Assembly: GCF_021134715.1 (NCBI RefSeq)
Contig: NC_060017.1
Location: 5,518,001-5,582,000, forward strand
Length of the DNA: 64,000 nt
Direction: 5' to 3'
From: Daphnia pulex
Lineage: Eukaryota; Arthropoda; Branchiopoda; Diplostraca; Daphniidae
Position 1 is the stretch's first letter, and every line of letters starts with the position of its first letter. The notes under the pieces were generated by a model. It had not been told where the DNA came from. It did not search any database and was given only the letters and a program-made list of their open reading frames with translations. The translations under genes and the position numbers were made by a program. This document shows, piece after piece, positions 1 through 45,276 of this stretch.

Positions 1-2015
1 TTTATTTTACATATAGAGGCTGTTGATCGATGACAACCCGTTTATGCAGTCCCGCCTTGTCTCCTATTTTTTTTTTGTCCCGATAGGACGCGCGGGACAA
101 TGGGCCGCCCAACGGGACCCGTAGCGGGTGACCAGCAATAATCAATGGACACTTATTATCTCTCTCTTTATTCTTGTAGATATCTATTTGTTGTTTTGTT
201 TTTTTATTATATAGTAGTGTTACGTTATTCTTTCGTTCCCCTCCATTTAGCGTGCAAGTATCCAGCCACGTTGCCGGGCATTTCCAGTTTGGCCTCAAAA
301 TAATAAAAGCCAACGATCATCGTCGTTGCAACAGAGAGGCGTCCGTGACAAAAATACAATTCGCCAGTCGCTGCATATAATATCGAGAAAAATAAAAAAA
401 GATAAATTGTGCATTTCTTCTTCTTCTTCTCGCTGCTGGGCAAAAAGGACCAGCAGCTCGGACAAACCCACGCGAAAAAATGGATAGAAGGAAAAAACCT
501 AACGCTACTGTTATGGATGCTTCTAAAGGTAACAGGACTTTAGCCTGTCAGCCGTGAATTGGCACTTTGTTACAATTGGTAGATCCAACATGTAGCTAGT
601 AGTAGTATGTAGCCATATCACGGTTGTATAGCAGCAGCAAAAGCCGAAAACCCTCTTTTGGGATGCTGATGTTCAATTCGGAATGAAAAACCGGCCGCAA
701 TCTCATTTTATTTTTTTGATATTTTTCCCAGCGCGTATAATATTATATTAACAGTTGGTCGGCTTTTTATGGAGATGTGATGCAGAGCAAGAGAGCGGAA
801 TAATAATCGAATATATGCGGATGCCATTCGGCTGTCTGCGGTGATGGAGATCACCGTGGTGGTGGCCAGTTTTTTTTTCTCTTTTGAAAGAAACAAAATT
901 TTTTATTTTCTTTTCTTTTTCGCAAAGGGTCCCGGTCGAGTTACTCCCGTCAGATGGTCATTTCGGCAACCAACAACCGCGGAAACTAGGAGGCACGAAC
1001 AGGTTATATTTCTGTATAACAGATCGACTCCAATGTCTACCGTTGCCCCTCACAAAAAGAAAACTAGAATTGACCATTTTGAAATAAATTGGAAATGGCA
1101 TTCAGTAATTAACTGGCAGAATTTGGAAAAGAGAAAAAAGAAGATAAATATGAAGGTTGATTGAAGCTGGAGGCCATGTTTCCGCTCGGTTGGGTTCAAC
1201 CCAGTCGGAGCAAACGCCGGTGATAAGCTCCAGTCAAGAGTGAGAAAAACCAGACTGGGAAGAAGAAGAAGAAGAAGAACCGACTTGACTCGCAGATAGG
1301 CTGGGCGTTCTATACGGCATTATATTAGAGGTCCTTCGCCGGGATTATTGTCACGCGGCAGCAGCACAGCAGAGAGAAAAAAAAAAGAAAACGGGAACTT
1401 GACGCGCCGATGAGTTGTAAAAGCGAACCAAGAGAAGGTCAATTACACTCCTCCTAAGAAAACCATTCAACCTGCCATTCGTCGCCTTATTTCTTTTTCC
1501 TCCCAGATTTTTCTTCTTTAACCGGCCCAAAGAAACCTTTCATCTCCTTTCGAGACCCTCGTATATAGACATACCGGATGCACTGGAAGAACAGGAAGAA
1601 CAGCCGGTCATCTACCCGATGCGCCAGCAGACATTTTCCAGCAGCTCCCATCAACTCAATTTCAAACACACAAAAGTGTTGGCGTATCTTCCCTTTTTAA
1701 TCCACACCCGGAATGACGAAAGTTTAATAATAAAAAAAGGGCGACACCTTTCTGTATAGTGAGGGCGACAATGGTAAATAATAAGAATGCAGAGCAAGTC
1801 TAGAGGAACGGCGACATTGTGATCGTGTGTAATCGTTTTTCTTATTATACAACAAACACGGTCCATCGCCCTTGTTTTTCTTCTATCGTCTGCTCAACTG
1901 CGTCGTGGCGAAAAATTTAATATTCAAAATGCGATCTGTCGAATGTATTTTTATTTTAAAAAAAGAACTGGATTTAGATATAATGGATCTTGTCGGATAT
2001 AGGGAGGGGTCGATT
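1..2015. other. Gene-poor stretch
   Basis: I see no supported gene here. The sequence has long T-rich and pyrimidine-rich runs, short CTT/GAA arrays (for example near 1261-1280) and only short reading frames interrupted by low-complexity sequence. No paired splice sites join into a recognisable protein. Confidence 0.5.
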
Positions 2016-3017
2016 ATTAATTGTTTCTATCGATATCTTATTTAAGCACTATGGCTAATTAGAATATTAGTGTCGTCTGCTTACGTCTCGTTTCAAAAGT
2101 TTCAACACAGAGACAAAAGAGACCAAGTTTATGTTTTAGAATAAGATTATTACAAAGAAAACAGATCAACTTTTTTTTTAAACGTGGCTGCACGAAAATA
2201 GTGCAACAAATAAAATGATAAGAATGTGATTGTCGTGTGAACCCTGGTGTCGCGACTCTCCATGCTCTCCACTCCATGCTGTTTGGCAGGTAAATCTAAC
2301 TAAAGAAAGCAAAAGGAATGATATTGGGGGATGAAATAGAATTAAGAGTTAGACCTGTTCCATGTGTGTTAAATATTAATTCCTGACTAGCATAATACAT
2401 GTCCCTTGTTGATTCATGGAAGTTTGTTTGCACTAGCTATAACCTTGAAACCTTCTCCTTTGTGCAGATTTGAGGCCTGGAGCCAGCCATCTCAACAAAA
2501 AAGCATGCAAGTTTTCGCTTGTGCTGGTATTGACCTGTCAACAGCAACCATCTCACCATCACCACTTGCTGGGTAATGATTTTCGATACTTTGATTAACC
2601 TGTGACCTGATAGGTATTTTAATGATGCACAAGTGAATTACATGGAAACCTTCAATTCTCTTGTTCGTGAACAATCATGGTTTACCCACTGTGCCAATTT
2701 AAAGTTTTCCAAACTTGTTGTTTCTTTCAAAATTTTTTCGTAACCCATTTTTGATTTTGCATTTAGATAAACAGCATCCCGTTTGAGTTGGAGTATCTAC
2801 CCAGGATGTCGGTCGAGTTACGGATCTCTTCTTCCCCGTTCTTGAAATGTCATCGTGTACACCCATATCGAGTGTGGGTGAATTCACGAGGACCACCTTC
2901 TCCTACCCCACATGGTGGATTCAACTTTTCTGCGGATGTATGGAGCACTTGTGGATGCCTGGCCGTATTTCCCGGGCTTAAAGGTAGGAAAACTGTTTCT
3001 CTATTCTTCCTTTTTTG
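2016..3017 (+). repeat. Copy A of a dispersed ~1 kb exon-intron-like duplication
   Basis: This segment matches 14620-15597 in the same orientation over nearly its whole length, with scattered substitutions and small indels. Matching positions include splice-like signals: a donor after 2290, an acceptor before 2468, a donor after 2572, an acceptor before 2775 and a donor after 2983. Joining 2468-2572 to 2775-2983 gives one open frame. It includes CAGIDLSTATISPSPLAG in the first block, and GGFNFSADVWSTCGCLAVF near the end of the second. Relative to copy B, two indels in the second block together restore the frame, so its middle reads differently (CHRVHPYRVWVNS) while both ends match. I do not recognise the family. 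It may be a real small gene, a fragment of a multicopy gene or a decayed pseudogene. Confidence 0.55.
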
Positions 3018-5032
3018 ACTCTCTGGTTGCTTTGTTTTTTTTTTAAATCGTGACATAGCACGGAGTACGATTATTCCTGAGCTATGCGATTGACTGGAAC
3101 TGTTTTCTCCTGCCATTTTTGTTGACTCAGTTTGGGTTCACCTCGTTTGTTGAACGACTGGAGATCAGGCCTGTTTTTTTACCCCACAACTTTGTCTGTG
3201 CTTTGTATAAACAATCGAATTCGAAAACTTTTAACCACTTTCGGCAAAAGTGCAACTAGGAAATGGTATGACCAAGAGGGACCTGCCGCCACACCGGCAC
3301 CTCCTCGTAAATATTTAACGTTTTCCTTTGAAGAAATGTTCGAAAACTCTCATCCAACTTTTTATAAGAAACAACAACAACAACAACAACCAAATTACAA
3401 ATGATAATCGGCGCTCATCAAGTGACTTTATACACACACACACAGGCAGGCAGGCAGGCTGGCTGGATCTACTTTTATGTCAGACTGTATATAGAAATGC
3501 ACGTACGGTCGAAGGTGAATTTGTCGTCGTTTTCTTTCTTTTGTGTAATTTCTTTGGGTCGTAAAAAGATGAAAAGGGAAAGAAAGAAGAAGAAGAAGAA
3601 GAGACTCAACGACTGGCTTTAATCCCCTTTTTTTAATAGTTTCGACTCTATTACGGCAACGACGCGCCGTGCCAGAACTGCCACACGGCCTCTTCTTCTT
3701 CTTCTCCTTATGCAGCCAGAGACGCTAAAAGGAGGGATTGAGGTTGAAGACCCTCGTGTGTTCCACTTTCGACCTCTGCGGCAACAACCGGAGGAACAGC
3801 AACAACTTGCTGGCATCTACAGCAGAGCCAGACACAAAAGGGGGGAAGATAGGAAGAAGAAGAAACAAACAGGAACACAACCCCGTTCGTTTGGGTTCGT
3901 GTGCAAACGGGCCCGGCACCCATCGTCGTGAGCGCTGCCGAGCTGTCACACACACACATCTCTCCAAAGCTGATGCTATCATCTCTCGACTGAATTTGTT
4001 TGTTTGCTTTTATTTATCTCCATCCTACTACGTATGTATACGATGGGGGTCTCTTTTGGTGCAGGCCATGCGTGTCTCTGTCGGAGAATGTCGTCCCCAT
4101 TGCGCCGAGTGAAAATCATTCAATATCTCCGGCTAAACACGTTCAAACAAAAATAGTTGGCGCACGATTTTTTCTTTTCTCTTTTTTACTATTTTTTTCT
4201 TTTTTTACACTTTGTGCGTGTCGTGTAAAGTTAGAAGAAGAAAGAAAAGAAAAACACCCGGAAGAAGAAGAAGAAGAACGTGATAAGAAAAATGCGTTTG
4301 GCTTATAACCGACTCTTAATTTCTCTCGGCGCTGTGTGTGCTGTCCTCTTGACAGAAAAATTTACACGCACAACTATCAGGTGCTGGGACTATTTATACG
4401 AGCGCATAATACAGTTTCCTATATAGCAGTAGGAGCTGGAAAAACTGTGTGTACATGCTCGGCATTGACATCATCACGCAATGGCTAATTAAACATGTCT
4501 GCGGGGTAGTTTGGTTTAACGGTCTCGGCCCATTTCTTATTCTTACCTTTTTCGGTTAATTCTTTGGCTGTTGTTGTTGTTGTTGTTGTTGTTGGTTTTT
4601 GTTTGGCGTCAATTGCTCCGCAGAGGAGAACGTCTGGAGGCTCTTTTCTCCGCATATAAAAAGAAAGGAGAGAACACCCCCCTTGAAATATTTCAATTTC
4701 TTCGTTTAAGAGTTGGTGTAGCAACAGTCAAAAACAGTCAGAACCTCTTTGGAGGTAAGCCCATCAGGCGTGTGCGTTCCATGGGGGGGAAACGGTTCAT
4801 TTGGACGACCAATAAAATAACCGACAAGCAATTATTCGTGAAACAAACGGATTGATAGATCTCCATAAAGAGTATAGACAACAAGAGCACAAGATGTTTT
4901 TCATAGTCTTATTTTCTACCTTTTTGGGAAAAAAAAACAGGTAGAGAGACACTCTGTACATATATTAGAAACAGAGGGCACATTTGTACCGTTGCTCGCA
5001 ACCAGCACCTCATATTCTGTCTGAATCCATTT

Positions 5033-5047
5033 GGGGGGGGGGGGGGG
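5033..5047 (+). repeat. G15 homopolymer
   Basis: Fifteen consecutive G residues, followed by ACGGCG and then a T-rich tract. It is prone to sequencing and assembly length error. Confidence 0.9.
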
Positions 5048-8000
5048 ACGGCGTTTTTTTTTTCTTTCCCTTCGGCGTCGTCGGCGTCGTCTCTTTTTAT
5101 TTTTCAATAAACGGAAGAAGAACAACTCCGTATGCCGGCGTGAGTCTTCTCAGACTTTTTTCCTTCCTCCACCCTCCTTGTGTGTCTGTTAAACTCCAAA
5201 AAGGAACGGATGAACTTTTTTTTTTTCTTGTATTTTTCCACATCGCTCATTTGCTACGCGGTCGCAGACACACACACACGGCTCCGCTTCTTCTTATGTG
5301 TGTGTGTGTGTACCGTTAGGCGTTGTTATATCCCGGCGTATACGGAGGGGAAAGAAAAAGGGGGCCGCCACCTAAAAGGAGCTGCTCTCACGATCGAATG
5401 GGTCTGTGACCGAGATCTTTGACGTCATCATCATAGGAAAGAAAGAAAGAAAAAAGACATACCCGACAACAACAACACGATCTTATTCTTGAGTCTTAAA
5501 CTGGAAATTATATCAAATCTAGACTCGAACCAACTAGTAGGAAGATTTTGTCTTTGAGGTGATGGTGGATTCCTGAATGGCGGCGACCACCGCCATCGAA
5601 AAAATCTCGGCAGCACCACCGGTTCTATCTATTGCTTTTTGGGAAATTGTTGTTGTCTCCTATATAGTAAATGGCGTTGTTGTTTATCCTCATTCTTTCG
5701 CCCAGGCGCGTGATTCAGACACATTTCTTTTTCCATTCCAGTTCGATTCGACCGGCCAATAGAATCGAACCCGTGTGGTCTCTCTCTCTCCTATAGACCT
5801 GGGCAACCTCTGCGATTGGGAATCACGAAAATGAGGAGGAAGAATCTTTTCCAAATGGCGTCAGACATTATTTTCTGTCTGCCAACTAATGAAAAATGTG
5901 TACTTAACATATTCTAGGCATTTTCTTACGACATGTACGACTCATTCTATCCATTCATTCGATACTTTTCAAGTGTCTTCTCGTCTGAGAAATGCGCCAA
6001 AGACGTCGAGTCACGCAGGCCATCAGGTCGGGACCGCGCTTGTTGCAGGAAGAAGAACCTGGTCGGTCCTAGTTCTCCCATTTTTGTGTGGGTCGGTCAG
6101 TCGATGCTGACGGGGTCTTCTCCATGTGTGTGTGTGTCTCTTTTCTTTTATTCTAGAGTGTCCTTTTTTCTCTTGATGGGCAACGCCTGTGCCAGTCCCG
6201 GGTGGACACACAACAGGAAAAAAGGGCCAACTTGTATTCTTCTTTTTTTCTCTTGTTCATTAAAAGCCATTATTGGGTGGACTGCTGGCCATACAAGGAG
6301 TCCCATAGGAGAGATGGCTCTGTGTGTTTCATTACCCTCGTGACCAGATAGCCTCGTCCTCCGCAACAGGAGGAGGAAGATTCTTTTTTCGTGTTTTCTC
6401 GTCTTATTTGGGAGAAAAGATTTTTTCTTCTTTCGACTATAATGTAATCATTCGATAATAACTAGGCTCTCTCTCTGGTATTGGGCGTCCTGTTGGTCCG
6501 CCCGTGTGTGTGGGGCGATTACGCAGAGAGTTCGGTTGGATAACGAAGAAATTTCGGGAGAGAAAAAACGAAAAAAATATAAGGAAATGGAACGCGGCGG
6601 TGCGCGCTCATCTGCCCCCGCTGAGATTTCCTTCTCCTCCTATTCATCGTTTTTCTTCTTCTTCTTCTTCCTTCCTTTCTCTTTGTCTGCTGTGTACATT
6701 TACCGTAGTGCGTCGTTCGTTGGTTCGTTCGTTCCTTCCCTCGGCGACTGAATAGAAGAAGCCGCTCGATTGCTCCCACGGTCGACGTGGGATTTACCTG
6801 GGCGCTCATCAAAACCAGAAAACAACAACAAAAAAAACAGAAGAAGAAGAAGCGAACGACCTTGTGTGTGTGTTTTGCTCGGCGCTGGATGCAATCCAGC
6901 GACGCCCACACGCCATTTCAAAGAGGAACGCAATATGCAAGCCAAAATGTGCCATACAGAGATCCTTGGCCAGCTGAACGAATACCTTCGTCCCGACATT
7001 TTTTATTTAAAAACTATTTGTAAGACGAAAAGGCGAGTACTGTACCTGCCTCATTTTCTGCCTGTTGCGTGACAAGGCGGCGGCCGCCCCGGCCGTGACA
7101 GAAAAAGACTCCGACCATCTTCTTCCCCCTAAAGAAAAAAAAAAACCAACTGCGTGATTTGTGAGTTTGGCCATCGTCTAACAAAACTGATGGCAAAAAA
7201 AGAATAAGGAGACTCGCCAAAGTTGTTTTTTTGAAAGCGAAAAGAGAATGTGCTGTGTGCTGTGTGCCAGCTCAGCTGACGTCATGCCGACGCATCGGCA
7301 CAGATGAGGTACGAGTGTGAGTCGCGGCCGACGCGTCTGCTGATTTATAATTCAGGCATTCACTCACGAATCTCTTTTTTGGCATTGACTTATTGTTTCT
7401 CTTTCTCATTTCTTGCTGCTCGTTTTCTTTTTGTCTTATCCCTCCTCTCACTTGGATTGTGTAATGCACATACAGTCGGTGGTGGTGGCGGTACAAAGAC
7501 AAAATGATGAGACGAAATAAATAATCCAACGGGCCAGCGCTTTTATTTTGTGGCCATTTTTTGGCCTTTTGTTGTTGCACCTTTTTCTTTTCATTAAGAC
7601 GATCGCCCATATCGTCTCTTTCTCGTATCATCGTCATCCGGGTTCTTGTTATTATTGTTGTAAGCCAGTTGAAGGACGTTAGAGTCTATTATATACGTAG
7701 GCAAGTATTTAAAAGAAGAAGAAAAAGTCTTGGGGCTCTCGAGGTAGAAGGATGATGATGGCACTGTGCGTCAGGTGTTTTTTCTTGTCGGGTGTATACA
7801 GTGGTGGTCGCAGCTTCAAATCACCTGTACGTATGTACCTTGTGCTGGCAGAAGCGGGAGAATAGGTAGCCATGAAAAGAACATTATGAGCGCAAGGAAA
7901 TTATCTCTGGAAAAAGAAGAAGAAGAAAGATGCGGCACCGAATGTCTTCTGGGCACGTCATGCAGTGGCAGCTGCTTCTGCTGCTGCTGCTGTGAGGCCT

Positions 8001-8578
8001 TGGATTTTTCTAGAAAATTACATCACCCCCGTTTCCTCATATACCCACTACTACTATATATAATACACTTGATGTGTATTAGATTCACCGGGAGGCATAT
8101 AACCTACAGGGGAATTAAACTTACCCCCTTTAGGCCTGGTGCTCGTGATGGGCCATCACCAGTTACACCCTCGATTTCTCTTCGCCCCCAGCAGACCTTC
8201 AATCTTTTTTTTGTTTTTTTTTTCGTTCGTTCGTTCTCACCGTCATCATTCTCCCATATAGACACACACTTAAAGAGATGAAGATAATGACTTGGATGCA
8301 CACAGCAGCTGATAATGAATGCGCAAACACTGCAGGTGTATATATACGCAGTGGCCGGGTCGCTTGACGTTTTTTAAATATTTTTAGACGACGAAGACGA
8401 CGGACTCGACTTGCTTGTTTATCTTGTTATCCACTCGGATACTACATCATCTCTGCTGCTGCTTGTTCTTCTTCTCCTTTGTGGAAACGAGATTCCGACC
8501 TTTGAGGTTGTTTGTTTGGTTGTTTGGTTGTAGATGTGGAGCTCCGTCTTAAGATGGTCTTGCACGCGGGCAAACGCC

Positions 8579-8589
8579 TATATAAAAGG
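8579..8589 (+). promoter_or_regulatory. Orphan TATA-like element
   Basis: TATATAAAAGG is a close match to a metazoan TATA box, preceded by GC-richer sequence (CAAACGCC). A start site would be expected near 8612. No coding exon is recognised downstream on the + strand, so it could drive a noncoding transcript or be chance. Confidence 0.25.
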
Positions 8590-9982
8590 ACGGACTGTGC
8601 TGGAATTGAGGTGACCTACTCCGCTTTTCCACTTCTTCTCCCTCCTGGCTCATCCTCTTCATTTACATTGCAGTCAAAATAACTACACGAAAAAAAAAGA
8701 GAAAATAAACTGGAGAAAATGGTGGTGGTGGTGGAATGAAACCTGCTGGATGGGATGCTGGGCTCTCGACTGACCCCGCACACATCACGGAGGTACACAA
8801 AGGAGCATTTGCTCGGGTTACGGTACTGTGCAAACAACAAAAGATAATACGACGACGAGTCTTATCTCTTCAACTTGTGCATCCAGGGCCAGCAGCACAT
8901 ATTAGTCTCAAAAAGAAAATCGAGGTCTAAAGAAATGACAATAATAAGCACAGAGGGGAGGGGGAGAGAGAGCTAGGATATTTTCTACGGATCAGTGGCT
9001 GCTGTGAATGGCTGGCAAACGATCGAATATCATTCAAAAGGTGAAGAGACTGGGGCATACATCTATAAGCTGCTGGGCGGTGGAAGCCACAAAACAGCTG
9101 TGCCGGGCGACTTGATGGTTATATAGTGGCATAGGTTCTATTCACATTTTCCCCTTTGTGTTGTTCAGAATTCTTTCTTTTTAGTGCTGCCTGGATGGTT
9201 GACAGTCTCCTTTTTTTCCTTGTTGAACGTCACCTGGGCCCGGCCGCTATACAAACTTTGTGGAAGAGAAGAAGGGACACGACGATGGATGTCCAAGTGT
9301 CAACTGGAGATCTTTTTCTTTCTTTCCGTACCGTAGAAATGCGCAGTTTCAACTCCCCTCGTCTTCCACTTCAAAAAAAGTTTCCATCTCTTTTTGAGAA
9401 GGAAAATAAAATGTTCCTCTAATCTTTTCGTGTACATCCCAGTTTTCCGAGCGATAAGATAAGAAAGAAAACTGCCAAAGAAAATAGCCCTTTTTCTTCC
9501 GTGTGGGTGCGACGACCCAGTTGTGAAAAAAATGCCATCTTTTAAGTCTGAATACATCGAAATCGGAATTTATTTTATCTTCGAATTGCAAAAAGAAAAA
9601 TTACAAAACAGAACCCAAGGGTGGAACAGGCGAATTAATAAACAGGGAAACAAACAAACAAACGAAAAGAACAAAAAAAAAATCTCTGGAAAAATAAGGG
9701 GCGGAAGTGGGTACACAGTCACAACGAGATTATTTATTACACACACGTTCGCGTTTTTCTCTTTTTTAATTCTTTTAAATTAAGTACAAAATGTCTATCG
9801 TCTGGTTGTGATCCTTTCCCTTTTTTTCTTTTTCATTTTTTTTTAATCTACAAAAAAGTTGACTCTCATGACACGAAATTCAGAAGAAGAAAAAGAAACA
9901 ACATCAGGACAAGAATCCACATGAAACCAAATTTTTCACGACCTTCCGGGCGATTCACGACCGCCAAATGTTGTGTAGTAAA

Positions 9983-9997
9983 TTTATTTTATTTATT
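9983..9997 (-). terminator. Tandem poly(A) signals for the CABIT gene
   Basis: Read on the - strand, two overlapping AATAAA hexamers (complement of TTTATT at 9983-9988 and 9992-9997) lie about 220 nt downstream of the stop codon of the CABIT-domain gene. This fits a short 3' UTR. The assignment rests on motif and position only. Confidence 0.5.
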
Positions 9998-10211
9998 TTT
10001 TTAAATTCTAGTGGCATTCGTTATATTATTAACGTTAAAGGTTTTTTTGGGGGGGCTAAGAAAAAGAAAATTTCAAAATGGAACCCGGAAACAACAAAAA
10101 AAATCTGGAAATGGAAGCAAACGGAGAGGGACATTAGCGAGCAGAAACAAGGTCACAGGCAAGAAAATGTTGTTGTTACAGAAGGTGGTTGTGTTGTTGT
10201 TGTTGTTGTTG

Positions 10212-12752
10212 TTACAGGTGGTAGAAGATGGTGTGCTTCTTGGTTGTTGTGTGGCTGCTGCTGGATCCATTTCCGGTGGCTGTATTGAGCAGGTGGTGGT
10301 TGGATCCGGAGTGACGGCGCCGGCCCGGAATTTCCCGTTTGAGTCCGGACGTTCGGCTGGAATTGGAGGGAATCACGTCGGCCACCACCGTCGGGTGCAA
10401 GTTGATCTTTAGCGGCGATTTGACGTTGTTGCTGCTGCCGTGCGAGCGGTTGTTGTTGTTGTTGTTGCGCTGGTCGCTGCTGCTGGCCCGGCCCCACAGT
10501 AGGTCAGTGAGGGAACGGGGTCGATGCAGCTGGAACAGCCGGTGTTGAGAGACGGGCGGGGCCGAAACTTGTCGCATGTAATGATGTTGTTGGTGGTGTT
10601 GCTGGGAATGGTGCAGCCGCTGCTGACTGCCGGCCGGAATGTGGTGGTGGTGGTGGGGTGAGCGGACGGCCGCCGATCCCGCCGATCCGCCCGAACAACG
10701 ACCGCCACTCTGGCTGGATCCCAGCGTGTCCGAGTCGGCGGCCGAGTTGGCCAGCAGGAGGTTGGTCATGGACTTGTATCGGATGTTGAAGAGCGGCGAC
10801 GGAGTCAGCGACTGTTTGCTCTCGGCCGGACTCAACATGCCCGGCGAACGGTGCTGGATCACGACGGCCGGATTCTTGCTGTACAGTCTCTGGCCGGCCG
10901 ACACCGAAGGAGCCACCCCGCCGCTGGCCAGGGCGCTGCGTTGCCGGTACATCCGCGGCTTGGCCACCGGTTCCGGCGACGAGTTGACCGTGATGGTCAC
11001 CGTCGTCGCTGCCGCTGCCGATGACGAGTTGAGGTTGTTGTCCGTCTCTTTCTCACCCACTGCCGGGCAGCTGGCGACCTCTTTACTGTAGCTGTTGATC
11101 CGGTTCCGGTGGGTGGGAATCGTCTCCAGCGGAGGTGGGACCGGCTTGACTTGTTGATTGATGGCCTTTGTTGGCTGTTGTTGTTGTTGTAGGTTGTTGT
11201 GATGACTCGGGTTGTTGTTGGATCCGTTTTTATGGCTGACGACTTTGTTGTAGAGGTTGCGGCGCTGCTCCGCCTTCCGGCCGCTGGCCAGGCGGTTGGA
11301 TTCGTTGAAAATGTCGTACGTCGACGTCGACGTCGTCGTCTTCAAATTCTTGGGCAGCGGAGCGAAGCCGCGGATGTAGTCGTAGATCTGGTCGATCTCG
11401 TCGTACTCGGCCGGAAGCTCCTCCTCATCCGCATCCAGGCCTTCCTCCCCTTCCGGCAGCTCCGCCGTCAGCGAGTGATGCAGGCCGTTGCTCATCGAGT
11501 TATCCAGCAGTCCGGAATTCTTGTTTTTGTGGCTGCCGCTTCCGCCGTGACCGGTGATGGACTGGATGAGGTCGGACGTGCTCCGCCGGAGCGGGGCCAA
11601 GAGAAGCGGAACGGGCACCCGCCAGTGCTGGCCGTCGAAGCGCAGGTTCTTGCTGAAATGGGCGTCGTAGACTTGGATGCGATCCGACAGAAGTCCGTAC
11701 TGGTGGAGGCAGCGCTCCGTCATCCGGGCGAACTCTTTGGAGGCCTTGAGGCTCTGCCGGTTGACGGGCAGCTGGAGCTTGAGCGAAACGGACGGCGGGA
11801 TGATGACAACGCCCGGGCCGTCTGGCGACGTCTTGCCTTGGTTGACGCCCAGCGGCATGGCCACGATCATCTCCTCGCGGAAACTGGCCAGCAGCCTCAT
11901 CTCGTAGCAGAATTGCTGGCCGATTTTCAGGCCGGCCGGAGGGCTGCCCGACACCATCCGCACGGTCAGCGGCAGCCGCTTGTTGAGCAGCGCCCGGATC
12001 CGGTGGACGCCGCTGATGCCTTGCTGGTTGTCCTCCTTGGCCACGACGCTGAACTTTGCCCGCATGTCCAGCGGCAGGTAGACGTGGTCGCCCCTCGAGT
12101 CCAGGCAGTGCAGGAAGCGCTGGCCGGACGAGATGGAGGAGGAAGGAGACGACGACAAACTGCCGCCGCTGCCCGTCACTTCGCCCACCAACACGAGCAG
12201 CTCGCCGGCCGTTAGAGTCCGCGAGCGCTCGGTGATGTTGACGTGCTGGCCGTCGGTCGACTTGTGCGTGTTGGCCTCTGTCGACTGCTGGTAAAAGACT
12301 TTGAGGTTCTGACGGACGAGGCAGGAGTCGGGGAACTTGCGGGCCAGCTCGGTCACCGACTCGATGCCCCTGACGGCCCGCCCGTCCTCGTTGAGAATTT
12401 CAAAGTAGCCGTCGAAGGTTTCGGGTATGGCCAATTTGGGTCCGACGTTGACCGTCTTGTGGTTGTCTTTGAATTTGAGGCACTGGACGGCCAGCCGGAG
12501 ACTGGCGCCGGCCGAGGCCACCAGGGCCGTCGACGACAGAGACGGATTGGGCAAAGAGGGTGCGCCCAGGCCCAGGTAGGAGCCCTTGACGATGCGGACC
12601 AGTTGCGGCAATTCGCCCGACTTGACGACGTCGTGCAGGTAAACGTGCGGCGACTCGTCCGTCTGCTGCCCGCAAGAGCCAGAACTCTGTCCGCCGCTGC
12701 TGCCACTCCACCTGGCCGTCGTCAACAGGATGGCTCCATCCGATCCGGCCAT
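10212..12752 (-). CDS. sano: CABIT-domain protein, serrano/GAREM family
   Basis: One open exon of 846 codons. The N-terminal half (about residues 36-370) carries a CABIT-type region: HVYLHDVVKSGELPQLVRIV near 36-55, then the family-like GPKLAIP and the LPLDMRAKFSV/RLPLTVRMV blocks. About residues 448-470 hold EYDEIDQIYDYIRGFAP, a tandem-tyrosine motif like those of GAREM-type adaptors that bind SH2/SH3 proteins. The C-terminal half is disordered, with His, Gln, Asn and Ser runs (poly-His near residue 700). GAREM proteins are Grb2-binding adaptors of receptor tyrosine kinase/MAPK signalling. Fly serrano acts in planar cell polarity; I recall it as the arthropod family member. I chose the ATG at 12752 because its context (AAAAAATGGCC) is good and the 41 residues open upstream are Lys/Arg/Phe-rich, UTR-like sequence. 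Further coding exons upstream cannot be excluded. The exon is GC-rich compared with its flanks. Confidence 0.85.
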   Translation of the reverse strand: MAGSDGAILLTTARWSGSSGGQSSGSCGQQTDESPHVYLHDVVKSGELPQLVRIVKGSYLGLGAPSLPNPSLSSTALVASAGASLRLAVQCLKFKDNHKTVNVGPKLAIPETFDGYFEILNEDGRAVRGIESVTELARKFPDSCLVRQNLKVFYQQSTEANTHKSTDGQHVNITERSRTLTAGELLVLVGEVTGSGGSLSSSPSSSISSGQRFLHCLDSRGDHVYLPLDMRAKFSVVAKEDNQQGISGVHRIRALLNKRLPLTVRMVSGSPPAGLKIGQQFCYEMRLLASFREEMIVAMPLGVNQGKTSPDGPGVVIIPPSVSLKLQLPVNRQSLKASKEFARMTERCLHQYGLLSDRIQVYDAHFSKNLRFDGQHWRVPVPLLLAPLRRSTSDLIQSITGHGGSGSHKNKNSGLLDNSMSNGLHHSLTAELPEGEEGLDADEEELPAEYDEIDQIYDYIRGFAPLPKNLKTTTSTSTYDIFNESNRLASGRKAEQRRNLYNKVVSHKNGSNNNPSHHNNLQQQQQPTKAINQQVKPVPPPLETIPTHRNRINSYSKEVASCPAVGEKETDNNLNSSSAAAATTVTITVNSSPEPVAKPRMYRQRSALASGGVAPSVSAGQRLYSKNPAVVIQHRSPGMLSPAESKQSLTPSPLFNIRYKSMTNLLLANSAADSDTLGSSQSGGRCSGGSAGSAAVRSPHHHHHIPAGSQQRLHHSQQHHQQHHYMRQVSAPPVSQHRLFQLHRPRSLTDLLWGRASSSDQRNNNNNNRSHGSSNNVKSPLKINLHPTVVADVIPSNSSRTSGLKREIPGRRRHSGSNHHLLNTATGNGSSSSHTTTKKHTIFYHL

Positions 12753-13317
12753 TTTTTCTTGTCTCTTTTTTCTTCTCTCACGAAAAAAAAAAACAAAAAA
12801 TCCACGACCACCACACCGCACGTCGTTTTTTTTCTTTTTTTCTTCTTTTTCTGGGGGCCGGCCGCACGATCTCACGAGTTCAACGACTCGTCACCATGCG
12901 GATTACCCTGTCGGGAGTAAGAGAGAGAGAGAGGCTAGGGTGGTATAATCGATCACTCACCAAACACTCGTCTTTCAATCATCATCATCATCATCTTCTA
13001 GTGAAAATCTCCCCCAAAATGTTTGTCTTAAATTTTTCACGAATCCTCTTTTGGCACCGTTCAACTCATTCACGAAAGAAACATTTTTGCACGTTTCACT
13101 TGCACAAACTCACGTCGAAATTTTAAAAACTTTTGGGTTGAAAACAGACAGGTGAGTTGTGTGTGTACAGGAAGAGAAGAAGGAAAGAGAGAGAGATAGA
13201 GAGAGAGAAAAAGGGGGGGAGGAAAAAGGAAAAGAGCAGCAGCAGCAGGTTGGTAGAGAGAGAACTATCTGAGAGGACGGCCGCCAGCCAACTAACGGAC
13301 TAACCGCGACCGAGGCC

Positions 13318-13329
13318 AGCTATATACTA
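13318..13329 (-). promoter_or_regulatory. Possible TATA element of the CABIT gene
   Basis: On the - strand the sequence reads GTAGTATATAGCTGG. It lies about 570 nt upstream of the chosen start codon, which leaves room for a long 5' UTR covering the purine/pyrimidine-rich sequence between. Positional inference only. Confidence 0.25.
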
Positions 13330-14606
13330 CTGCTGCACTGCACAGCACTGCAATCGCCTTATTTTTTTTCTTCTTCTTCATACCAACGGCAGAGGGAGAG
13401 AAGTGGTATGGGGGGGAGAGAGACAGGTAGATTTCGCTTCGGGCGGGATTGAAGCCCGAGCACCTTCATCACGGTCATCCGCCCCTTGAGGGCGGCCCTC
13501 CTATCTCCCGCCATTCCTTTTATTTTTATTTTTTTTATTTTTTGTGATTTCGTATTTTTCCTGGCCAGACCGCCGAAATGAAAAAGAAAAAGAAGGTCCT
13601 CATCATCACCACCACCACCACCACTGGTTACGCTTGTGTAGAGAAAGACGCTGTCGTTCAACTCTCAAGTACGAATAGATCCCGACCTTGTCTAGCGCTC
13701 AAGTCGATTTTTTGTTTTCCCCCCTTAACTGGCGGTTTGGATATTGGCCATCACGGCCGCAACCAAACCCCCAACGATCCGTTGAGAGCCGGACGGAACC
13801 CTGGAGGACGTTTCCAGTCGATCGGAGGTATCGAAATATGTAAGCCAATATCATGTGAGACGATCGCAAGGTTTTCATTCGTACGCCGGCGGATTATTTA
13901 TGAAACGAGTTGCGTATTTTAAAAAGAAGAAGAAGAAGAAGCAGAGGCCAAATTGTTCCGTTTTCTGCACTGAATGGCGTCGAGGCAAATGACCGGCTAT
14001 TATTATAAAGCGTCGGCTGCTGCTGCTGCTGTTGATGATGGCCGAGGAAAATAATTACGTTGGCCAAAAGATCCAAAAAAAGCGGCGAAATGGATCGCCG
14101 ACATCATTAGGAAATAGTATCAGCGGTGGCTCACATCCACATGAATAAATATCGGCCGTCTGGATTGCCTCTAACAAATTTGCGTCGACTAATAAGGAGG
14201 GACGCCATTATTTCCGCGTGGAACAATCGGGACCTGTGTGTGTGTGCTGGAACACGACGGAAAAAGAAAAAAGGACACGAGCATAAAAACGACGCTGAAC
14301 AGAGTTTATTATTAAAAATAAACAAGGAAGAAGAATGGCTGGTCTATACGATCCCATTATTATTATTCCCTCTCGGCTTCCAACCGGGTCCTGGAGGGTC
14401 TCTCATTGTGGCGGTCTAAACTTCATTTTCTGCGGGTTTCGTGCCAATTTTGGCTTTTTTCTTGTCACTGTGATAGGGTGTGGCTCGGTATTATTTGATA
14501 AAACCAACTATTAGATATTCAAATTCAAATAATCCCGATTCGTAAAGCAATTTTTGTTTGTTTGGGTTTTGTTTTTGAGCGGTTTGGTTTTAGGGGGTTG
14601 AGGGTG
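13330..14606. other. No gene recognised
   Basis: Short CTT/GAA arrays, a (CAC/ACC)n tract near 13608-13622 and GCT/CTG repeats near 14019-14032. No frame of recognisable composition or splice structure was found. The left member of a direct repeat that flanks copy B lies at 14320-14343. Confidence 0.45.
14320..14343 (+). repeat. Left direct repeat flanking copy B
   Basis: A 24-bp stretch starting AAACAAGGAAGAAGAATGG is repeated exactly at 15629-15652. After a short mismatched spacer both are followed by ATCCCATTAT, extending the similarity to about 40 bp. The pair brackets copy B of the duplicated unit. Confidence 0.75.
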
Positions 14607-14619
14607 GTGGTCGATTTTT

Positions 14620-15597
14620 AATTTCGATCGATATCTTTTTTAAAAAATGGCAAATTCGAAGAGTGTCGTCTGCTTTTTCGATTTCAAAAGTTTCGACAAA
14701 GAGACAATTAGAGACGAAGTTTAAGATTACTAAGAAATCGAAACGATTACTTTTTTGGAAACGTACACACGTGGCTGCACGGAAAAGAGCATAACAAATA
14801 AAACTACAAAATTGTGGTCGTCGTGTTAACTCTGGTCGAATTTCTTTATACAATCGCTTCATACACAGTCCATGCTTTTTAGAGCAGGTAAATACCAAGA
14901 GTTGAAATTGAATGAGGCTTAAATAGAAGTGAAACCATTCCAAATATGTGAAGTGTTAGTGCTTGACTGGCATTAATCATAAAACCACCCTGTCGATGCA
15001 TGGCAGGTTGTTTGCACTATGTAACCTTTTCTTCTTTTTTTTTTTCAGATTTGAGGCTGAGCCAGCCATCGTGACAAAAAGATGTGCCAATTTTTCTTGT
15101 GCTGGTATTGACGTGTCAACAGCAACAATCTCACCATCACCACTTGCTGGGTAATTGATTTTCGATACTTTTTATTAACCTGTGACCTGATAGGTATTTT
15201 AATGATGCACAAGTGTATTACATGGAAACCTTCAATTCTCTTGTTCATGAATAATCATGGTTTACCCACTGTGCCAATTTAAAAATTTCCAAACTTGTTG
15301 TTGTTTCTGTCAAAATTTTTCGTAACCCAGTTTTGATTTTGCATTTAGATAAACAGCATCCCGTTGGAGAACCTACCCAGGATGTCGGTCGAGTTACGGA
15401 TCTCTTCTTCGCATTTTCTTGAAATGTCATCGTGTACACCCATATCGAGTGTGGGTGAATTCACGAGGACCAACCCTTCTCCTATCCCGCCTGGGGGATT
15501 CAACTTTTCTGCGGATGGATGGAGCACTTGTGGATGCCTGGCCGTATGTCCCGGGCTTAAAGGTAGGAAAACTGTTTCACTATTCTTCCTTTTTTGA
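14620..15597 (+). repeat. Copy B of a dispersed ~1 kb exon-intron-like duplication
   Basis: Direct-orientation relative of 2016-3017, including the same splice-like sites: donor near 14887, acceptor before 15049, donor after 15150, acceptor before 15357 and donor after 15562. Joining 15049-15150 to 15357-15562 leaves an open frame ending in GGFNFSADGWSTCGCLAVC, with CAGIDVSTATISPSPLAG and LPRMSVELRISSS before it. The first block (before 14887) does not join in the same frame: one phase meets TAG and another meets TGA. This copy is therefore either broken at its 5' end or starts within the second block. The product is not recognised. Confidence 0.55.
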
Positions 15598-15628
15598 AAA
15601 CTATTTGGTGGCGTTGATTACAAATCGT

Positions 15629-15652
15629 AAACAAGGAAGAAGAATGGCTGGT
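15629..15652 (+). repeat. Right direct repeat flanking copy B
   Basis: Exact 24-bp match to 14320-14343, 32 bp beyond the end of the copy A/copy B similarity. See the left member. Confidence 0.75.
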
Positions 15653-18600
15653 GTCCCATCCCATTATATAAAAAACTAAAACTTGCGGGAAAATTAGGCG
15701 ACGTGGGGGGGAAAAAATGCACGTGATGTAACAACAGGCACACAACAACAACAGAAAAAAAAGAAACGATAAAAAAAGTGTGACCGTTTCTTCTTATCTC
15801 TCCTGCGGGGTGTATAGTAACTCCCGCGTGTAATAATTCCGCTTAGGGCCACAACATGCAAATGTCGAGCGTCGTAGATGTAGAACGTTGGGTTGTATTG
15901 TGTCGGGAAAGAAGCGTGACCGCAATCGGGAGCGAGATGATATTACTCACTGGCACTGCTGCTACCATTTCCTACTTTACTCGCCTGTTGTTGCGTTGCT
16001 TCTTTGTTACCTTTTTTATTTGACGTGAAAGATATTTGACTATTTTTTTTTTTTTTTTGGCCTTAAAGAAAAATTTTCGGACGTGACGTGGCGGGAAAGA
16101 AAAAAAAACTGGTCCAACCGACAAATCCAGTTTTGTTTTTTTCCCTACACGCTAGCAAACAGTAGCGATTTTTCGCCAAAATGCCGAGCAATCACATTTT
16201 CCAAGTGTTTTCTTTCATCTAAATCTGTCACAACACTTGGTATAGCGCCTTATCAATGCCGAGGAATTTCTTTTTCCAACCCATTTTTCACCTTTTTGCT
16301 GTTCTTCTTTCAAGGTTTTTTATTCCCACCGCATTTAATGACCAAAATTGTGCAGCCTATCTGGGTGGGAGAAAAAATCAAATTTGAAAAAAAAAATTTC
16401 TTAAAAAAAAATAAAAAACGCCCAGTGTATCGTGAGAAACCGGTACAAGGTTACGTGCGGTCATCATCGTCTTCTAAGGGTGGTAACAGAAAAATCAAAA
16501 TCGATCCTTGTGTGTGTGTCTATTCGTTCTCTTTTTGGGTTTGCTACCCCCCGAACGAGAAGAAGAAGATGGTCATCATCATCCCTGGCGAATATAAGTA
16601 TAGCTTATGGGCCACTATATAGTTTCGGCCGTCATTAGAGACGGACAGAGACACACACAGGAGTTGTATGGTGTGTGTGTGTGTGTACTGCGGGCGAGCA
16701 ATAATCACAAGACGGGGGCCCCTCCTTGTGTGTCGGCACACGCACCTATTTCGCTTTTTTTTTCCATCCATTTGTGCTGGCCGGCATGAATAGACACACA
16801 CAAGACACAGCACGCGCTGCTGAGGCCCCGACACAGGTGCGCAGGGTCGTCTTGTAATGGCCAAGATATTCCATTCCGCATGGAATATAATAGAAGAAGG
16901 AGAGAGAGATGGATGTACGTACGCAAGAGTAGAGCGTCTGTGTGTGTTATTTACGCCGTACCCTCATCTCGTCGGCAGATGCGCAACGAATTAAAAAAAT
17001 CTCCTTTCGGCGAATCAGTCCCAAAAAAAAGATGGAAAACCTTGGAACAGGTTTTGTTATTTTATTTTGTTATTTTTTGAAGAGCGCGCCCAAAAATATC
17101 CCGCCACAACGAATCACAGCGCAAACATTTCGGATAAGATGATGGACTATCGCGAGTCGTCGTTATATTACGTGTATGTCATAGTGTCGTTCTTTCCGGC
17201 TCGTCAGCAGTGTGGGCTCATATCAAACTGCGGTCACCGGTAAAATTATAACGACGCACTTCCATCACCGGAACAATGGCCATAAACATGTCGGGGAAAA
17301 AAAAACCGACCGGCGGATTTTGATATTTTTGTTTTTGTTTTTTGTTTTCTTTCGCGTTTACCAACAACGGGACTTTGTTTGGAAATAATTTTTTTTCTCT
17401 CTCTCTCTCTTTGGCTCCTACTCTACTGCAATTATAATGCTGGGCTGGTGAATTCCGGATGCGGATATAACCCCCTCGTTTGCTGTCCGCCATATCTTTT
17501 GTGTTTTGTCATTGTTCTATAGCCTCGTTTTTTTTTTACGTTAAATTCCTGTTGCCTTTCGGGTTTATCACGTTCGAATTTGGATGTAGGAAAAAAAGAA
17601 CTGGGGGATTTTTTTTTTGTTTGTTGTCCGTTCGATCGGCGGCCGGATGTACACGTTGCGCCACTGCTCCGAAATTGCCCCACGGATCCCATAGGACAAC
17701 AAGTTTTTCTCGTCGGTTTTCTTTTAATTATATTTCCCAACTTTTTTTTTTATTTCATTTGGTTCCCCCCGATGTCGGTTACATCGTTTTCGTTTCAGCG
17801 GCTAGGGAAATGCGCGTTGCATGTTTCCGACTACGGTCCTGAACCAATGACCCACTTCGACCCGGGTCCAAAAGAACGTCTGCTGCGTCTCTACGGAATC
17901 GGGAAATCGCAGAGACGGGAATAGCACAGGCGGCACGGGCACGACCAGCTCTCAGCTGTGGAGTAGGTCACAACGTGAAGCGACTAACCAAATAAATTAT
18001 TCCGAGCAGTTAAAGAGGATACAATCAGAGAAGAAGAAAAAAAAATTGCGTTTATATAAGGAGAACGAGATTTGACCCCCCTTCACGCCTATCTCTCACG
18101 CCTTCAATTCCGTATCGGGAGAAATAACAGAAGAATAAAGCCGGAAGGAGAATGTGCTGCATACATTTTTTAGCTTTTCTATTTCAAATTCGCCAATGTC
18201 CTTAATTGTAATTCGTTTCTTTTTTTGTCAATCACGATAGCCGATCGGAGGTATGCGCTGTGTGTGCGTGAGCCACTGGCGATAACCGGTAACCCCTTGA
18301 ACACGCGGGAAAAAAAATCAAATAAGGCGGACAGTATAGCTGGGGGTGCCACGCCTTTTTCTATCAATATGGCCAGCTGACGTACACAGAAAGAGAAAGA
18401 ATCCCCGGCCACACTATCTAGATTTCGATTTTTGTGTCTAAATATTTTTTTAAAAAATCGGACGAAGGAAAATCAAACCGCGCCAGGGTTCACGACCGCC
18501 AAGCTCTGCCGGAACTCAGGAGAAAGGCGGTGACATTCCTATTGCGCCACCAAAAAATCGGGCGACCAAAAAAAATCTCACGAAATCTACAAAGTGGCAA

Positions 18601-45146: not shown

Positions 45147-45276
45147 GATGCAGATATCTTTCACCGCCATAGGCTGCAACAACACACCACATTGGACAGG
45201 AACAGCAACTTGATGCAGATATCTTTCACCACCATAGGCTGCAACAACACGCCACATTGGACAGCAACACCACTGC
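45147..45276 (+). repeat. Tandem duplication, 65-bp unit
   Basis: Two units, 45147-45211 and 45212-45276, nearly identical: each starts GATGCAGATATCTTTCACC and contains CATAGGCTGCAACAACAC and CCACATTGGACAG. Confidence 0.85.

Follow-up and report, generated by a model that had tools for sequence, protein, structure and literature searches.

A dispersed rolling-circle-like transposon family of Daphnia pulex with conserved splice-like sites and hairpins in its interior

Two copies of a dispersed element in the window

We analyzed a 64,000-nt stretch of the Daphnia pulex genome (contig NC_060017.1; hereafter, the window, whose positions are used for coordinates given without a contig label). The window holds two plus-strand copies of an element, A (near 2016–3017) and B (near 14620–15597), which belong to a family of several hundred dispersed copies, most of them without one detectable end. 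The most conserved parts of the family are not its ends but a set of splice-like sites and a hairpin in its interior.

An earlier note on the window had described A and B as two diverged copies of a ~1-kb exon–intron unit, possibly a small protein-coding gene family. The direct alignment of 2016–3017 with 14620–15597 was reproduced, as A (2001–3037) and B (14601–15619) are 79.4 per cent identical across 1073 columns in direct orientation, and B was retrieved with an E-value of 1.4e-244 when the genome was searched with A. The extent of the unit, however, is greater than ~1 kb. Copy A spans 2002–3308, with a missing or unrecognizable 5' end and an intact 3' end (homology to other copies runs from ~2001 to 3326), and copy B spans 14363–15620, with its 5' end present and its 3' part truncated (homology with A reaches 15619).

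Nor do A and B stand alone. In the genome (133.19 Mb in 13 contigs), we found 482 hairpin-arm sites (3 in the control), 570 exact sites of the motif GTGTCGTCTGCT (84 in the control), and 567 sites of a splice-donor pattern with one base open and at most two mismatches (18 in the control). The search with A gave 62 match pieces, and of its 703 candidates the best 40 were scored, fetched, and aligned; these copies were selected by similarity to A, and 39 of them are distinct. The 39 form a star-like tree whose terminal branches account for 90.6 per cent of the total length, and younger subgroups are present within the family. The earlier note had named many genomic copies as the outcome that would point to an ordinary repeat. 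Hundreds of copies do exist and the element is a repeat, but not quite an ordinary one, as specific internal sites are strongly constrained.

Conserved sites and hairpins in the interior

Along the plus strand of A, the first conserved feature of the 40-copy alignment is a palindrome, TATCGATATC (2028–2037; CGATCGATATC at 14625–14635 in B), which may act as a promoter. It is followed by GTGTCGTCTGCT (2070–2081; 14663–14674 in B), which resembles a transcription start and may serve as one. The splice-like sites that the earlier note had seen at matching places in A and B are present in the other aligned copies as well. Putative intron 1 occupies 2290–2467 (14888–15048 in B), and its GT and AG letters are kept in 37–38 of the 40 copies. 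Putative intron 2 occupies 2573–2766 (15151–15348 in B), with the donor G kept in 37 copies and the donor T and the acceptor AG in all 40. The third exon-like block had been proposed to begin at 2775; the CAG before this position is indeed well conserved, but the best-kept acceptor is the TTTAG at 2762–2766. A third donor, AAG/GTAGGA (2981–2989; 15560–15568 in B), retains GGTA in all 40 copies and GGTAGG in 39, and its GTA is kept in all 67 copies of a larger alignment.

Columns of the core underwent a mean of 5.3 Fitch changes, and 60 columns had none, compared to 4.4 expected under a Poisson distribution. The windows with the fewest changes are the donor window AAGGTAGG (two changes in eight columns; Poisson P-value = 3.6e-16), the hairpin windows, GTCGTCTG of the start-like motif (five changes in eight columns), GATGCCTG, and AAACAGCA. 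Across three donors and two acceptors, the ten GT and AG columns together underwent 13 changes, compared to ~53 expected from the core mean.

Samples drawn by other parts of the element gave similar figures. Among 20 unfetched sites taken in list order by an exact hairpin 18-mer, GGTAGG was present in all 20 and the start-like motif, at no more than one mismatch, in 18. Twenty sites of a 12-mer, picked by eye away from exact hairpin sites, yielded 11 element copies; in the eight whose donor was seen in the scan, it was exact in seven and its GT kept in eight. Finally, the interior was present at 17 of 20 unfetched sites chosen by the 3' end (zero or one mismatch), with GT in 17/17 and GGTAGG in 15/17; by an eye count, this sample has differences at 4 of 170 positions in the donor 10-mer, compared to 35 of 300 in a later 20-mer (15 copies). 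When any base was allowed at the donor T and exact matches were required at the remaining fixed positions, 214 sites were found, and all of the 100 listed have T. This last result is supporting evidence only, because exact neighbors select well-kept copies.

Putative exon 3 contains a 45-nt hairpin (hairpin 1, 2849–2893; 15426–15470 in B), the majority sequence of which is predicted to fold at -30.7 kcal/mol. A second hairpin (GCCTGG/CCGGGC; 2957–2977, plus strand) lies just upstream of donor 3. In 67 copies and 23 pairs of both hairpins (the poorly held outermost pair and one G-U pair were excluded), 55 transitions keep a G-U pair on the plus strand and 16 break the pair (P-value = 3.8e-6 against one half); the counts are approximate, and the tree was drawn from the same 149 columns. 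Rates per unpaired column (C to T, 3.05; G to A, 2.33; A to G, 1.5; T to C, 2.31) predict a near-even split. A DNA-binding palindrome would give no such strand bias, whereas single-stranded DNA could. Because the bias alone also fits single-stranded DNA, it is the splice sites that carry the case for RNA. Rfam gave no match in the window; in eight loci with copies, it gave three matches at E-values up to 1, none of which reached the gathering score.

Element ends and candidate autonomous partners

Extension into the flanks revealed sharp ends, TTATTCCCTCTTGGCTTCCAAGAGGGTCC at the 5' side and GACCTGCCGCCACACCGGCACCTCCTCG followed by T at the 3' side. At no more than three mismatches, the genome has 177 sites of the 3' end and 72 of the 5' end, compared to 0 for either reversed-pattern control. 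The 3' end of A (3280–3308, plus strand) has no mismatches and contains the stem TGCCG/CGGCA, with the subterminal repeat CCAAGAGGG just upstream. The 5' end of B (14363–14391, plus strand) differs from the 29-mer at three positions and bears a subterminal repeat that is palindromic (in intact copies, CCCTCTTGG / CCAAGAGGG). Both ends were matched in 9 of 60 scanned loci, at end-to-end motif distances of 1.29–1.52 kb in seven, 1.22 kb in locus L043, and 1.16 kb in locus L030, where the 5' match looks spurious.

HINEs are described as having palindromic subterminal repeats (the 5' one only a few nt from the end), a 3' stem-loop, T-rich insertion sites, and a 3' repeat 38–60 bp from the end (Thomas et al. 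2014, PMC4067079). In our family, the 5' palindrome reads CCCTCTTGG-CTT-CCAAGAGGG, the 3' stem-loop finishes 8–9 nt from the end, and the 3' CCAAGAGGG spans ~27–36 nt from the end. T follows the 3' end in all eight two-ended copies whose fetched stretch reached the 3' flank. Like HINEs, the family has no coding capacity, exons 2 and 3 being without a shared frame in 40 copies. The canonical Helitron 3' CTRR is absent from the end, which reads CTCCTCG and then T. By eye, and without comparison to an empty site, no target duplication was seen in two-ended copies. The truncated copy B is the exception: a repeat at 14304–14360 recurs downstream at 15613–15667 (plus strand; 80.7 per cent over 57 columns), and this 57-bp direct repeat departs from the duplication-free insertion expected of the HINE class.

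The ends therefore appear to fit non-autonomous Helentrons (HINE/DINE-1-like). The endonuclease fused to Rep, which separates Helentrons from Helitron2, was not found among the best 150 of 178 candidates in the partner described below, and the family may belong to either class.

A minus-strand, 11.9-kb interval of contig C11 has, in this order, a match to the family's 5' region (5894361–5894108; 72 per cent over 239 query bases), a Rep domain (5889910–5889330; Helitron_like_N, E-value of 2.2e-8 for the larger piece), and the family's 3' end (5882442; one mismatch). On the plus strand of contig C10, a match to the 5' end (10040581) is followed 2 kb downstream by a decayed Rep domain with six stops (10042565); this element and the family have ~250 bp of the 5' region in common, and a copy of the start-like motif, with one mismatch, lies upstream of Rep. 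As read in part, the two elements point to an autonomous partner, of which the Rep portion is represented, that probably shared its ends with the family. In the stretches that were read, neither element showed the family interior (hairpin and donor 3), and the endonuclease domain PF03372 had no match between 5882442 and 5894361 of C11 among the best 150 of 178 candidates. Close to its 3' end, the C11 element has a reverse-strand frame that looked RPA-like, but two scanned pieces of it gave no relevant Pfam match; a third piece, upstream of the Rep match in the C10 element, gave none either.

The core is kept while the ends decay

In the 39 distinct copies, the donor 10-mer has 6 mismatches in 390 positions (1.5 per cent) and the hairpin arm 36 in 702, compared to 112 in 780 (14 per cent) for a mid stretch. 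The 3' end has 64 mismatches in 560 positions of the 20 copies in which it is detectable, and the 5' end has 45 in 312 of 12 such copies (11–14 per cent for the two ends). An end was detected as the best match within set distances and scored as absent at more than eight mismatches; by this definition, both ends are detectable in 5 of the 39 copies and neither in 12. In these 12 copies, mismatches number 2/120 in the donor, 11/216 in the hairpin arm, and 47/240 in the mid stretch. The ends required for mobility thus diverge at roughly the pace of the mid stretch, unlike the core, and this is our chief reason to regard constraint for transposition as unlikely.

We consider it fairly probable that this is a decayed non-autonomous rolling-circle family that carries a unit for a spliced noncoding RNA with a hairpin, and that purifying selection not explained by mobility acts on this unit. 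The interior would be transcribed on the plus strand, and splicing would give a noncoding RNA whose exon 3 holds the hairpin. Many copies would be retained for a role other than transposition, played either by this RNA or by splicing from donor 3. Donor 3 may splice into flanking DNA, act through U1 binding, or be something else, and selection may act via the host on each copy in place. We put forward more tentatively, as a possibility less likely than not, that hundreds of immobile copies have turned into dispersed, host-serving genes for a spliced hairpin RNA, or into outward donors feeding flanking transcripts, each kept in place.

Transcription and splicing of the interior are predicted from sequence features, and several observations weigh against this interpretation. 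For donor 3, we found no acceptor within the element that is well conserved (the AG at 3129–3130 has three and seven changes). Rates vary only mildly across the element as a whole (gamma shape of 2.48), and the hairpin is damaged in several copies, for example, at loci L078, L080, L083, and L086. Moreover, the test of selection in place is confounded. Loci L034 and L045 are copies on different contigs inside a common duplicated stretch of ~3.4 kb; columns conserved elsewhere changed in 1 of 123 cases, compared to 63 of 895 for the others (Fisher P-value = 0.0045). The element diverged about three times as fast as the flanks. Yet the flanks differ by only 2.4 per cent and differences are clustered, and exchange between copies is possible. 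We treat this comparison as suggestive only.

Alternative explanations

The strongest rival is that the family is an ordinary HINE family in which the interior motifs are needed for transposition, with many old active lineages and each copy fairly recent. The strikingly conserved 90-bp core of Drosophila DINE-1, whose role is unknown (Yang and Barbash 2008, PMC2374699), the start-like motif upstream of a Rep domain, and the younger subgroups speak for it. On the other hand, the ends, presumably the parts most needed by the transposition protein, diverge like the mid stretch and are often undetectable, the donor and hairpin are little changed even in the 12 copies with neither end, and the star-like tree has long tips. 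We regard this explanation as unlikely, though it retains real weight.

It is improbable that the internal hairpin works at the level of single-stranded DNA instead of RNA, a second rolling-circle terminator being one such role. A strand-specific signal with G-T pairs would be expected there too, but the conserved GT and AG letters of five splice sites and the start-like motif would go unexplained, and, in 16 of 17 copies, 369–467 nt separate the start of the hairpin arm from the 3' terminal 29-mer (266 nt in locus L097).

That the family encodes a small protein is hardly credible: exons 2 and 3 of A and B can be read together with few stops, and their indels compensate, but in 39 of 40 copies all three plus-strand frames of joined exons 2 and 3 are interrupted by one or more stops, the exception being locus L039, where a single frame is open. 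We reject a protein-coding reading of the family as it was sampled. The lengths of exon 2 (90–111 nt) and exon 3 (204–229 nt) follow no multiple-of-three rule, and the 40 copies show no strong codon-phase signal in their divergence. A and B have a young 3' tract in common, intron included, in which intron 2 (6.7 per cent divergence) is about as similar as exon 3 (5.2 per cent), compared to 33 per cent in intron 1. The two copies share an open frame because this tract spans the intron too; the compensating indels noticed earlier are real, but they are no sign of a coding frame. The earlier interpretation is thus partly supported, in its splice-site conservation and not in its protein gene family.

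Arrangement of copies and neighboring genes

Hairpin-arm matches at 299852–331929 of contig C5 are spaced ~11.1, 11.1, and 9.9 kb apart, which suggests a local tandem expansion that includes the element. At loci L025 and L021, element copies are paired head to head, with matched 5' parts ~55 and 230 bp apart. Locus L112 (contig C3, 3194525–3195024) holds a ~570-bp short form with the family's 5' leader and 3' end and no interior, a possible deletion derivative. A tandem-repeat scan found no repeat inside A or B; elsewhere in the window, 45147–45269 is a tandem repeat (period 65, 1.9 copies).

Between A and B, on the opposite strand, lies a large open frame with a CABIT domain (10215–12890, minus strand; Pfam E-value of 3e-33). 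We scanned 20 candidate neighboring frames, picked by score from 44 fetched loci or by eye, most of which have no Pfam match. Pfam-named host exons beside L014, L017, L027, and L043 are on the strand opposite to the element, and the L043 copy lies antisense to a G-alpha gene, in between its exons. Beside L013 is a protein-like frame on the same strand as the element and with no Pfam match; hence, we claim no orientation count. A role of the element as a promoter of a downstream sense gene is not supported by the flanks examined.

Comparison with known systems

Literature searches with the element's motif strings gave no match, and broader topic searches, covering titles and the beginnings of abstracts, name no such element. 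The Daphnia mention found in the portions of the Helentron literature searched concerns a retrotransposon protein; searches on Daphnia promoters found nothing related to the element. Two exact patterns had no match in viral contigs.

As non-autonomous rolling-circle elements of a Daphnia genome, HeliDaphNA1.1 and HeliDaphNA2.1 resemble the family, and the former has 346–389 copies in Daphnia pulex (Schaack et al. 2010, PMC2884549). With 159 kb and 52 kb in total, they should have shorter copies on average than our family, which may nevertheless be identical to one of them. Helitron2 has end palindromes and asymmetrical terminal repeats, as the family does (Thomas et al. 2014, PMC4067079); the endonuclease of a partner would distinguish it from Helentron.

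HINEs, as described in the same paper, share with the family palindromic subterminal repeats, a stem-loop near the 3' end, a T-rich target, the lack of a protein, and, in two-ended copies, the lack of a target duplication. Unlike HINEs, the family has its 3' repeat slightly closer to the end, and its long interior contains conserved splice signals as well as an RNA-like hairpin. DINE-1/INE-1 of Drosophila likewise has hundreds of copies, subterminal repeats, a 3' stem-loop, and a conserved core, the function of which is left open in the relevant passages of that report (Yang and Barbash 2008, PMC2374699). The core of the Daphnia family differs from it in its splice sites and strand-specific pairing, as well as in the lack of tandem repeats in A and B. 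It has a recognizable anatomy of a start-like motif, introns, a hairpin, and an exposed donor, and its persistence while the ends required for jumping decay makes the family a testable case of one transposon family whose hundreds of copies may be retained for an RNA-level function.

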